Source: Anaerolineales bacterium (GTDB lineage: Bacteria; Chloroflexota; Anaerolineae; Anaerolineales; Villigracilaceae). From it: a DNA stretch of 39,610 nt. The position numbers were made by a program, and so were the translations under genes. Every line of letters begins with the position of its first letter. Within the stretch, counting starts at the first letter, position 1. The DNA is taken from assembly GCA_014860745.1 (NCBI GenBank), contig JACZJC010000075.1, positions 1 through 39,610 of the forward strand. Reading direction: 5' to 3'. The notes beneath the pieces were generated by a model. The model was not told the DNA's origin. It made no database searches and saw nothing but the letters and a program-made list of their open reading frames with translations. Shown here in pieces: positions 13,835 through 16,519 of the stretch.

Positions 13835-14743
13835 TCAAACAGGAGTTGTGATGACGAAAAGCACTGCAAGCAGGAAGAGCAAACTTGTGAGCGTACCGGA
13901 ACCCCAAACAATGAAGGCAAGCACACGTTCGCGTTCCCAACGATAGAAATACAAGCCTGCGACCCAGCCGATGATGGCAAGCAGGAAACTGGCCACGGGG
14001 AAGATGATCAGTTGGGAGGATGGCACGGTTTCAAGCGTGCCGCCCGCAAACTGCTGGCCCAGCGCAACCCGCGGAGTGGATGGGATGATGAGGCTGGCCC
14101 AAATGAATAAACCGATATTTAGAAATAATGCGGTCAGCCAAAGATAACGGGCAAGTCCGCTTTCCCATGCCTGGGTGACGACAAAAGAAGGATAAACCGA
14201 TTTCGCTTCGACAGGCGTGAGGCTGCCCATTTCGGTGGCGCGCGCAAAGGTCTGCGAAAGGCCGGAGGGATTTTCAGGCGAAATGACAAAGACCCGCTTT
14301 GCCGTGGCCACGAGCAGGAGTTTTTTTGCGTCCGATGCGAGGAACTCGACGATACCCAACTCTGGATGGCGGCGGATTCCCAGCAGACCGCCGGGAAGCG
14401 GCAGGGAGGGCAGGGCAAGCGGGTCGATCAGGTCTTCTGCCGAGCGCATCCATTCGATGTCGGAAAGCGGAATATCTTCGATGCGCAGCCCCCAATGGAT
14501 GGAGAGACTGTCGCGGTCGATGTAATAGTCCGCGCGCCAAAGTGAATAAGTGCGATAGGCAAAGAAGGGAATGGGTGAAAATGAAAACAATGCTGCCAGC
14601 AGCCAGCCTAAGAAGGCGGGCCCGACCTCGGCGTTGGACAGGTTTAGAAAGCCAATGACGGAGATGACTGTCAACACGAGCAGGAGCATGCCGTGGACGA
14701 TCAGGCCGCGTCTTTTGGGTGGAGGATAGTGGCCAACGTTCAT
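13835..14743 (-). CDS. Membrane protein with PH-like (bacterial PH) domain
   Basis: I do not recognise a named family with certainty. The 302-aa protein has two N-terminal hydrophobic segments (about 14-33 and 40-62). A soluble stretch of about 70-190 follows (YYIDRDSLSIHWGLRIEDIP, then VATAKRVFVISPENP), typical of the bPH domain found in many bacterial membrane proteins. Three C-terminal membrane segments come after about residue 195. The ATG lies 3 nt beyond the stop of the upstream ProRS-like gene, so the two are almost surely cotranscribed and may be translationally coupled. Confidence 0.6.
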   Translation of the reverse strand: MNVGHYPPPKRRGLIVHGMLLLVLTVISVIGFLNLSNAEVGPAFLGWLLAALFSFSPIPFFAYRTYSLWRADYYIDRDSLSIHWGLRIEDIPLSDIEWMRSAEDLIDPLALPSLPLPGGLLGIRRHPELGIVEFLASDAKKLLLVATAKRVFVISPENPSGLSQTFARATEMGSLTPVEAKSVYPSFVVTQAWESGLARYLWLTALFLNIGLFIWASLIIPSTPRVALGQQFAGGTLETVPSSQLIIFPVASFLLAIIGWVAGLYFYRWERERVLAFIVWGSGTLTSLLFLLAVLFVITTPV

Positions 14744-14746
14744 AGG

Positions 14747-15946
14747 CTAGAAAAGTTCAGAAATATCTTTCAGGCTCAGGATCTTTTCGACGGGCAGGAC
14801 GCTGCCCCCTGCCGCTGTTCGAAACTTCAATTCAACCATTTCATCCTTTAGCGCCTTTTCACCTGCTGTAATGCGTATGGGGCAGCCGATCAGATCCGCG
14901 TCGTTGAACTTGACTCCCGCGCGTTCATCACGATTATCGAATAACACCGAGATGCCCGCGCTTTGCAGGGCATTGTAAATCTCCCCGGCTTTTTCGAGCG
15001 TGTTGATGGTCTTGCCGGGGACATGCATGAGATATACATCGAACGGCGCAATGGATTTGGGAAGCGCCAGCCCTTTTTCATCGTGATGAGTTTCCGCAAG
15101 GGCAAGCAGGATATTTTGAAATTGGAATTCGGAACGTGTCGTCAGGCTGATGGCGGAAAGCATGGAAAGCGGATTCCCGCAGTTGTTGCAAGCGTCACCC
15201 GCCCTGGCTTGAGTCACATCTGCGACGATCCCGGCGGAATAATCGCGTGCATAATTGGTGTTCTTGAAATGATAGCCTGCGTCATTCGCACCCGCAACGA
15301 GATTTGGAGAACGGGGAATTAATTCATCTGCAACAATGAGGGCATTCTGCAAGCCGATCGGCGACGCAAACCCCGCCTCCGCGCCGGCCCTGCGAATTGA
15401 TTCTTCATCTGCAAGCTTTACCTCCCCGACGGCATTTCGGAGTTTGGCCTCGCTCATTTGCATGTCACCGCGGACAACGACAAAGACAAATTGGCCGTCT
15501 GAAACGCGGGTGTACATCATAGCCTTGGCGGTTTTCTCTTTCGGGACACCGAGAAACTCCGCAAGCGACTCGATGGTGTTGCAATCGGGCGTGGACACTT
15601 TCTCAAGCGGAAGTTTTTCTTCGCGGGGAAGTACCGTCTTTTTGAACAGGGCGAGCTCAAGCCGTTCCGAATATTTACACGATTCGCAATGCAGGATTTC
15701 TAGATTGCCGGTGGAAAGCGGGAAGAAGGTTTCCCGGTCGTTGAGCAGGATCGGCAGGGCGAGATGAAAAAGGAAGGAGGGGTCTTCTGAGACAAGCCGC
15801 AGCCGCGAAATTGCCTGCCGGCCAAGCGGCAGGATCTCACTTTCGCGGGTCAAATACCCTGCGCGGACGAGCCAGCCGAAGCCTTGAGTCCGGGCGTTGT
15901 TCGGGAATTCGCGTTGGGTTTGGATGTTGAGGTCTGTATATTTCAT
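14747..15946 (-). CDS. ProRS-like protein without the aminoacylation core (editing + anticodon-binding domains)
   Basis: A 399-aa relative of bacterial prolyl-tRNA synthetase (normally about 570). Kept are the N-terminal helix region (REFPNNART, then LVRAGYLTRES, ILPLGRQA), a full INS/YbaK editing domain (about 115-265) and a C-terminal anticodon-binding domain (about 298-399: SIAPFDVYLMHV, ISVLFDNRDERAGVKFNDAD). Missing are class II motif 2 and its surroundings, and the motif 3 GIGVTR. The editing residues corresponding to E. coli Lys279 and His369 appear as Lys141 (EKTAKAMM) and His226 (GANDAGYHF). Cys87/Cys90 and Cys253/Cys256 may bind zinc. A trans-acting Ala-tRNAPro deacylase role is inferred. 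Calling it functional proS would be wrong. Confidence 0.8.
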   Translation of the reverse strand: MKYTDLNIQTQREFPNNARTQGFGWLVRAGYLTRESEILPLGRQAISRLRLVSEDPSFLFHLALPILLNDRETFFPLSTGNLEILHCESCKYSERLELALFKKTVLPREEKLPLEKVSTPDCNTIESLAEFLGVPKEKTAKAMMYTRVSDGQFVFVVVRGDMQMSEAKLRNAVGEVKLADEESIRRAGAEAGFASPIGLQNALIVADELIPRSPNLVAGANDAGYHFKNTNYARDYSAGIVADVTQARAGDACNNCGNPLSMLSAISLTTRSEFQFQNILLALAETHHDEKGLALPKSIAPFDVYLMHVPGKTINTLEKAGEIYNALQSAGISVLFDNRDERAGVKFNDADLIGCPIRITAGEKALKDEMVELKFRTAAGGSVLPVEKILSLKDISELF

Positions 15947-15994: not shown

Positions 15995-16519
15995 CTAGGC
16001 TTCGTTCTTTTTCTTTCGCATGATTTTTTGGGTGGATTCGATCACGGGTTCCGGTGCGGGAATCTGGATCGGCGTCTGGGCGATGGATTCTGCCTGGGCG
16101 GCCTCCGAAGGTGTCGAATCGGGAGCAGGTTCAAGGTCCAGCTCGACCGTTTCTTCCATCCGAATTTGACCGCGCAGGAATGCGCCTTCCTCGGTCACGA
16201 ACGCGGTGGTGACCACATCTCCCCAAACGCGACCCGAAGCGCGGATCTCCAATTTTTGGGTGGTGATATTGCCGCGCACGGCGCCCGCCACAATGACGGT
16301 GTTGGCGCGCACGTTCTGGCAGGTCACACGCCCCGTCTCACCGACAACGAGCATGCCGCGCAGCGCGATCTCACCCTCGAACGCGCCCTCGATGCGTACG
16401 CCGCCGGAGCCGTTGATTGAACCGTGCCAGATGAGACCCGACCCCAGGACTGAGGTAATTCGTTCAACGGCTTGTACGGGTTGCGGAGTTTCTGCAGGAG
16501 TTGCGTTGCGTTTGAACAT
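15995..16519 (-). CDS. Bactofilin family cytoskeletal protein
   Basis: A 174-aa bactofilin. These proteins polymerise without nucleotide into filaments on the inner membrane and act in cell shape, polarity or envelope assembly. The central right-handed beta-helix runs about 22-115 with its repeating turns (GSINGSGGVRIEGAFEGEI, then VGETGRV, VRANTVIVAGAVRGNI, ASGRVWGDV). Short disordered N- and C-tails flank it. The C-tail is rich in Ala, Pro and Glu and ends in KKKNEA. A TAAAAT hexamer 9 nt before the ATG and the absence of a Shine-Dalgarno suggest a leaderless start. Confidence 0.93.
   Translation of the reverse strand: MFKRNATPAETPQPVQAVERITSVLGSGLIWHGSINGSGGVRIEGAFEGEIALRGMLVVGETGRVTCQNVRANTVIVAGAVRGNITTQKLEIRASGRVWGDVVTTAFVTEEGAFLRGQIRMEETVELDLEPAPDSTPSEAAQAESIAQTPIQIPAPEPVIESTQKIMRKKKNEA

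Follow-up and report, generated by a model that had tools for sequence, protein, structure and literature searches.

A prolyl-tRNA synthetase paralogue without its charging core in Anaerolineales: a candidate anticodon-guided trans-editing protein

The stripped gene and its neighbours

The sequence analysed here, referred to as the window, is a stretch of 39,610 nucleotides from an Anaerolineales bacterium of the phylum Chloroflexota (GenBank assembly GCA_014860745.1, contig JACZJC010000075.1). It carries a gene related to bacterial prolyl-tRNA synthetase (ProRS), which we call the stripped ProRS gene. The open reading frame has exactly the limits listed in Table 1 and begins with an ATG start codon.

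Table 1. Features of the stripped ProRS gene and its immediate neighbours in the window
Feature	Position	Strand	Basis or remark
Stripped ProRS gene ('ProRS-ed'), 399 aa	14747..15946	(-)	N-terminal ProRS segment, INS and ABD; class II motifs 2 and 3 absent
Residues 1-54, N-terminal ProRS segment	15785..15946	(-)	Aligns to 2j3l 1-58; in orthologues too
Residues 55-78, short linker replacing the rest of the core up to INS, motif 2 included	15713..15784	(-)	Alignment to 2j3l, motif columns
Residues 79-266, INS aminoacyl-tRNA editing domain	15149..15712	(-)	Pfam, phmmer, fold comparison
Codon for Lys141, aligned with Lys279 of E. coli ProRS	15524..15526	(-)	Lys in 102/102 aligned sequences
Codon for His226, aligned with His369 of E. 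coli ProRS	15269..15271	(-)	His in 102/102 aligned sequences
Residues 267-278, shortened stretch at the place of motif 3; motif lost	15113..15148	(-)	phmmer, motif columns
Residues 279-390, anticodon-binding domain (ABD)	14777..15112	(-)	D337, R339, G344, K346, D351, L352, G354 as in intact ProRS
Bactofilin gene, just upstream of the stripped gene, syntenic marker	15995..16519	(-)	PF04519, E 1.5e-22
PH-domain (bPH_5) membrane gene, downstream neighbour	13835..14743	(-)	PF10882; considered outside the proposed function

Pfam assigned the neighbouring genes of the window to bactofilin, bPH_5, DUF92, aldo/keto reductase, methylpurine-DNA glycosylase, an enoyl-ACP-reductase-like SDR (FabI-like) and an NAD-dependent epimerase (SDR307). 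Loci with the stripped gene were compared in 38 cases, some of them short and with four pairs (L010/L053, L025/L114, L026/L113, L029/L063) that look like one genome represented twice. A bactofilin gene lay upstream in 36 of the 38, and a PH gene was present in 32, at a distance of up to about 120 bp in 13 and further off in 19; it was not seen in 6. The original prediction had described the stripped gene as coupled to the PH-like membrane gene. The two are indeed spaced by 3 bp in the window, but tight spacing is common to only some relatives (13/38 loci), and conserved coupling was therefore ruled out.

Domain content and predicted fold

Two Pfam families were found in the 399-residue protein, tRNA_edit at residues 119-231 (E 3.6e-23) and HGTP_anticodon at residues 304-388 (E 4.7e-15), and no further family at E values up to 1. 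The NCBIfam models PRK09194 and TIGR00409 matched piecewise and below their cut-offs (232.5 bits against 558 and 163.8 bits against 306.7, respectively). At an E-value limit of 0.001, nearly all sequences matched in the PDB were synthetases, and the best among solved structures were bacterial ProRSs. When compared by phmmer with the ProRS of Enterococcus faecalis (2j3l), query residues 79-260 aligned to chain residues 216-400 and residues 278-386 to 447-552; the match of residues 1-54 to 1-58 is weak alone (8.5 bits), and the fold comparison spans residues 1-399. From the breaks in this alignment, the protein is short of approximately 135 residues after the N-terminal segment, up to the start of INS, and of approximately 29 residues ahead of the ABD. 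At ten core catalytic columns examined, the window protein had the catalytic residue in none. The core parts through which ProRS dimerises are lost as well.

An AlphaFold2 model, built from an input alignment of 69 rows, had a mean pLDDT of 95.8 and a pTM of 0.88. Its best Foldseek match was the E. faecalis ProRS (E 4.0e-37), and VIA-align superposed 394 of the 399 residues on 2j3l (Z 29.0, rmsd 4.4), which supplied the overlay on a bacterial ProRS proposed in the original prediction. The ProRS-like N-terminal segment, whole INS domain and ABD described there were confirmed by Pfam, phmmer and the fold comparison, and the reported absence of motifs 2 and 3 was borne out by both the 2j3l alignment and the motif columns. 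The model also aligned to PolG2, the class II synthetase-like accessory subunit of the mitochondrial polymerase, at Z about 15.

Editing-site and anticodon-binding residues are retained

We read the motif columns of 82 INS-type sequences and classed these by eye as 41 intact, 25 decayed and 16 stripped. The editing Lys and His were kept in all 82, and in 102/102 after the addition of 20 further sequences from f1, the family of the window. Column alignment confirmed the earlier assignment of Lys141 and His226 to the editing residues of the E. coli enzyme, which we take to be numbered Lys279 and His369. Residues I125, L128 and T139, which we take to be pocket columns of INS, were conserved in 99, 101 and 100 of the 102 sequences, respectively. 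All five residues were retained in each of the 18 stripped copies aligned. Of the seven ABD residues listed in Table 1, none had been lost from any of these 18 or from the 7 half-core copies in the alignment.

One ABD position differed between the classes. Residue 342 (window 14921-14923) is Arg in 18/18 stripped, 7/7 half-core and 8/51 intact copies, and Ser in 41 intact copies; Arg342 may represent a change in anticodon reading. Two Cys pairs, suggested earlier as potential zinc ligands, do exist as CxxC pairs (residues 87/90 and 253/256). As a distinctive trait of the stripped protein they were ruled out, as each Cys is shared by all, or all but one, of 51 intact relatives and is ordinary for these ProRSs.

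Low dN/dS in the stripped gene

The dN/dS ratio for the whole gene was between 0.07 and 0.22 in all 14 pairs computed; dS was high and, for several of them, saturated or nearly so. By region, a single N-terminal value reached 0.48 and all others were below 0.26; INS ranged from 0.08 to 0.16 in the 14 pairs, and dS for the ABD was infinite in two.

These data bear on whether the protein is a non-catalytic tRNAPro-binding accessory or regulator, such as a ProRS-I partner or a tRNA chaperone, in which INS serves as a scaffold only. Accessory proteins derived from synthetases exist, the model resembles PolG2, and the genome of the window holds other editing proteins. A scaffold, however, would have no need of the editing Lys and His or of I125, L128 and T139, all invariant in the stripped copies, and the low dN/dS of INS likewise argues against this explanation, which we regard as quite improbable.

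The charging enzyme, tRNAPro genes and other editing proteins of the host genome

The genome containing the window (4.32 Mb in 82 contigs, 98% complete) was searched with profiles for ProRS genes. No INS-type ProRS scored over the TIGR00409 (ProRS-II) cut-off. A full archaeal-type ProRS-I is encoded on contig 21 (558.6 bits, cut-off 437, covering positions 4-475 of 475) and was the only match over a ProRS cut-off; no tRNA_edit match was found at its locus. The search for another ProRS gene proposed in the original prediction thus found a full one, lacking an editing domain. Nothing was found in favour of residual charging of tRNAPro by the stripped protein through some unrecognised route; such charging is extremely improbable given this complete ProRS-I, and was ruled out by the missing core residues: at eight core columns none of the 16 stripped copies has the catalytic residue, and at two others one copy each does.

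Three tRNAPro genes were found (UGG, CGG and GGG), all of bacterial type with C1:G72, A73, G35 and G36. G72 and A73 are given as bacterial tRNAPro identity elements in the excerpts of PMC11295145.

Five further, free-standing tRNA_edit proteins are encoded in the same genome. One is close to Thermus ProXp-x (TTHA1699; E 1.1e-35), a family for which a lesser activity on Ala-tRNAPro is also described (PMC11295145, in excerpt), and another is YbaK-like. The other three (G000 contigs C8, C22 and C70; L219, L222, L223) matched no characterised INS family. A PDB chain named ProXp-ala was among the matches of none of the five, which is weak evidence that ProXp-ala is absent. Because of these five proteins, editing may be redundant.

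Amino-acid specificity varies across the INS superfamily (excerpts of PMC11295145), and the genome has these other INS proteins; both would fit a trans-editor that acts on something else, such as tRNAPro charged with Cys, Ser, Abu or azetidine, or on more than one tRNA. We consider this unlikely, since its pocket columns are the same as in intact INS domains and the bacterial ProRS INS domain is described as editing Ala-tRNAPro and not Cys-tRNAPro (PMC10164551 and PMC6344894, both in excerpt).

Distribution of the stripped gene

Among the matches listed from 298 genomes of the class, those starting at residue 1-3 and ending at residue 384 or later came only from family f1, where 13 of the 14 genomes sampled had one. 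The remaining matches listed had later starts and, as a rule, longer frames. Named relatives matching over the full span (L007-L029, with L015 cut by a contig end) were metagenome-assembled genomes (MAGs) labelled Anaerolineales, Anaerolineae or 'Chloroflexi bacterium'.

Of 120 f1 genomes, 77 had a full-span copy free of internal stops, counted as one whose match starts no later than residue 5 and reaches at least residue 376. Five more f1 copies were partial, split or interrupted (G523, G489, G435, G434, G529), and some f1 genomes had no stripped gene. The copy in G434:C155 contains an in-frame TAG and the match in G529:C20 is split in two, possibly through recent decay or assembly error. Such cases, together with the absences, are what a pseudogene heading for loss would produce, but the 77 uninterrupted copies and the low dN/dS strongly disfavour that explanation, which we hold to be very improbable.

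ProRS-I scored over the cut-off in 51 of 53 f1 genomes searched (17/17 in one sample and 34/36 in a second, picked for long, odd or missing copies), and the other two gave partial matches.

Decayed copies occur chiefly with ProRS-I

A census of 151 genomes drawn evenly from the order of the window found ProRS-I over the cut-off in 88 and ProRS-II in 63. Both were present in 16 genomes, ProRS-I alone in 72, ProRS-II alone in 47 and neither in 16; among the ProRS-II matches over the cut-off, those in G306 and G363 are partial genes. Copies with INS and ABD but under the ProRS-II cut-off were found in 35 genomes, 30 with ProRS-I and 5 without, a count that leaves out pieces in G329, G349, G382 and G409 and a weak match in G371. 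The position of the copy over or under the cut-off was associated with ProRS-I (16 and 47 against 30 and 5; Fisher test, p=1e-8, with shared ancestry ignored). This comparison was restricted to the census because intact copies of our first set had been chosen with a preference for genomes containing ProRS-I.

Of the 47 genomes with ProRS-II alone, 15 were read and all 15 had intact motifs as far as the sequence goes (G363 is cut). ProRS-I was over the cut-off in 36 of 41 first-set genomes with decayed or stripped copies. The remaining five had a partial ProRS-I (G334, G312, G375) or none (G411, 82% complete; G425, 77% complete), and MAGs may miss genes. All five decayed copies from outside the order were accompanied by ProRS-I over the cut-off.

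Intact ProRS-II and ProRS-I were found together in 15 genomes of the order sample, in 6 of 11 intact genomes outside the order and in ten further f1 genomes. As the two often coexist, the presence of ProRS-I does not force decay. Conversely, 42 of the 88 ProRS-I genomes in the census, not each inspected, were not counted with an INS and ABD remnant (weak pieces, or pieces at contig edges, occur in four of them); in these genomes a different editor may therefore be enough, or none may be needed. Two of the 42, G358 and G379, had ProRS-I over the cut-off, no ProRS-II over the cut-off and no tRNA_edit (PF04073) match, and hence no INS-type editing enzyme was found in them.

The two synthetase genes were sometimes adjacent. 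ProRS-I and ProRS-II lie close by on one strand in L279 (G457), L280 (G503) and L302 (G164), and by coordinates are also close in G163, G279, G430, G463, G468 and G487; ProRS-II motifs are intact in several of these genomes, giving two synthetases for one amino acid. A tandem pair of this kind is not favoured as the source of the stripped gene, which occurs in another setting. In G119, two ProRS-I genes over the cut-off (contigs C121 and C53) accompany a decayed ProRS-II.

Graded loss of the core among relatives

Intact copies kept 8-10 of the ten core residues and decayed copies 0-7; G164, G119 and G059, classed as decayed with 7/10, are the least certain assignments, and G164 is over the ProRS-II cut-off. 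The ratio of core identity to INS identity was 0.41-0.78 in four decayed groups compared to 1.16-1.27 in five intact groups. The groups were of our choosing, and 7 of the 9 f69 sequences were used (G307 is cut and G341 very divergent). Such a reversal is expected if charging was released from selection while editing was not.

Gene neighbourhoods connected several of these classes. The intact copies G243, G263 and G372 of family f2 have a bactofilin gene upstream (53-60% identical), two of them with the glycosylase and epimerase genes too. No PH or DUF92 match was found beside these three, and no neighbour was seen for G202 of the same family. Motif-decayed G271, from another family, lies alongside bactofilin, PH, DUF92, glycosylase and epimerase genes, and half-core G445 alongside bactofilin, PH and DUF92. 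The half-core g261 copies G446, G466 and G473 have PH and DUF92 downstream, with no bactofilin match, and the deep stripped copies G444 and G500 have bactofilin upstream. On the 6.6-kb contig of G177, none of the window's neighbours was seen. Over the stretches compared, ten decayed copies (G319, G330, G299, G393, G302, G311, G368, G266, G016, G059) showed no setting in common, and decayed G119 had a single FabI-like match among its neighbours.

Two trees were compared. In the second, an unrooted tree of INS and ABD, stripped and half-core copies stood apart from the rest (support 88/87), with g261, g260 and G177 as steps towards the intact copies. The f1 copies did not all fall in one clade there, and a single f1 clade was not rejected (p-AU 0.353). 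Other decays were separate: G164 and G465 were placed among the kind adjoining ProRS-I, and G119 and G266 formed an f6 pair. The fewest changes of state, counted without direction, were at least 4 in the first tree and 3 in the second; the first has long branches (G341, G312, G016) and 28 of 79 inner branches open, and the second 19 of 53 open, with G500 long.

The relatives thus form a graded series from intact to motif-decayed to half-core to stripped, in a direction that we infer. On balance, we lean towards a history in which lineages of one bacterial class repeatedly turned an old ProRS into an anticodon-guided trans-editor once an editing-less archaeal-type ProRS did the charging. Present genomes would then keep the steps, from an intact enzyme through motif-dead and half-core forms to the 399-residue editor, in a shared bactofilin setting and partly in other places again.

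Proposed function

The stripped gene probably encodes a dedicated, anticodon-guided trans-editing deacylase for mischarged tRNAPro, with Ala-tRNAPro the probable substrate, and would be the ProRS counterpart of archaeal ThrRS-ed. A candidate trans-editing deacylase carrying its own anticodon reader had been put forward in the original prediction, and the low dN/dS, the kept editing and ABD residues and the decay series support it. Published work on the dependence of INS on the ABD also favours it. In excerpts of PMC3973320 and PMC11295145, changes to the acceptor stem matter little for deacylation of Ala-tRNAPro by E. coli ProRS, and the ABD and G35/G36 are needed. ProXp-ala, by comparison, is described as reading the acceptor stem (PMC3973320, PMC11295145 and PMC10164551, in excerpt). 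The choice of tRNA by INS in ProRS rests on the ABD (PMC11295145 and PMC3973320, in excerpt); the pieces kept in the stripped protein are therefore those with which INS selects tRNAPro, and the pieces lost are those that charging needs. An Arg of the motif-2 loop contacts G72 in E. coli ProRS (PMC10164551, in excerpt), and this region falls in the part lost from the window protein.

We envisage the protein as a remnant of a bacterial INS-type ProRS, in a lineage where the editing-less archaeal-type ProRS-I charges tRNAPro. Its ABD would grip tRNAPro by the anticodon bases G35 and G36, and INS would remove a misattached amino acid, most probably Ala, by hydrolysis at the 3' end. The protein would thereby act on the products of ProRS-I. 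Deacylation itself, Ala-tRNAPro as the substrate and the partnership with ProRS-I are each inferred here. The graded decay alongside ProRS-I suggests that selection can act on editing independently of charging in genomes with a second synthetase. It further predicts mischarging by the ProRS-I of these bacteria. We also suggest that Anaerolineae genes annotated as proline--tRNA ligase be checked for the motifs before charging is assumed.

Comparison with known systems

In its N-terminal segment, INS, ABD and overall fold the stripped ProRS resembles the INS-type ProRSs of E. faecalis (2j3l) and E. coli. It differs from them in having neither motif 2 nor motif 3 and in its length of 399 residues, compared to 572 in 2j3l. 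As judged from its sequence it is not a ProRS, the charging core being absent while the editing Lys and His of INS and the ABD are present. PolG2 matches in fold, but charges no tRNA, has an unrelated function and lacks an editing domain.

With ProXp-ala, YbaK, ProXp-x and ProXp-ST, which act in trans, the stripped ProRS shares the editing superfamily and its Lys. These proteins are single-domain as described in the sources excerpted, whereas the stripped ProRS has an ABD and an N-terminal segment. Excerpts of PMC11295145 describe trans-editors of the INS superfamily as single-domain and generally without a dedicated RNA-binding domain; the exceptions given are plant ProXp-ala, whose C-terminal domain aids tRNA binding, and ProXp-ala fused to the N-terminus of ProRS in some eukaryotes. 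INS joined to an ABD without a synthetase core is not among the trans-editors described in the excerpts of that paper and related ones, and no earlier description of such a protein was found in the titles and abstract openings of the papers listed by our literature searches. If our interpretation is true, no INS-type trans-editor before this one would have carried an anticodon reader, and the protein would serve as a natural experiment on the separation of editing from charging. A natural protein of this composition would also permit a direct test of whether the ABD is by itself sufficient for the specificity of INS.

The closest parallel is ThrRS-ed, found in some Archaea such as S. solfataricus. 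Like the stripped ProRS, it is a truncated class II synthetase with an editing domain and an ABD, no catalytic site and a separate charging enzyme (PMC9976931, PMC11295145 and PMC7373986, in excerpt). The stripped ProRS does not belong to the ThrRS-ed family proper, as the Ser-tRNA(Thr) hydrolase model PRK14938 matched it weakly and through the ABD only (16.7 bits against a cut-off of 362). The two also differ in the tRNA, in the fold of the editing domain, in their occurrence in Bacteria rather than Archaea, and in the charging enzyme, which here is a ProRS of the other type. In mode, by the domains it has kept and lost and the separate charging enzyme of its host, the stripped protein is ThrRS-ed-like.
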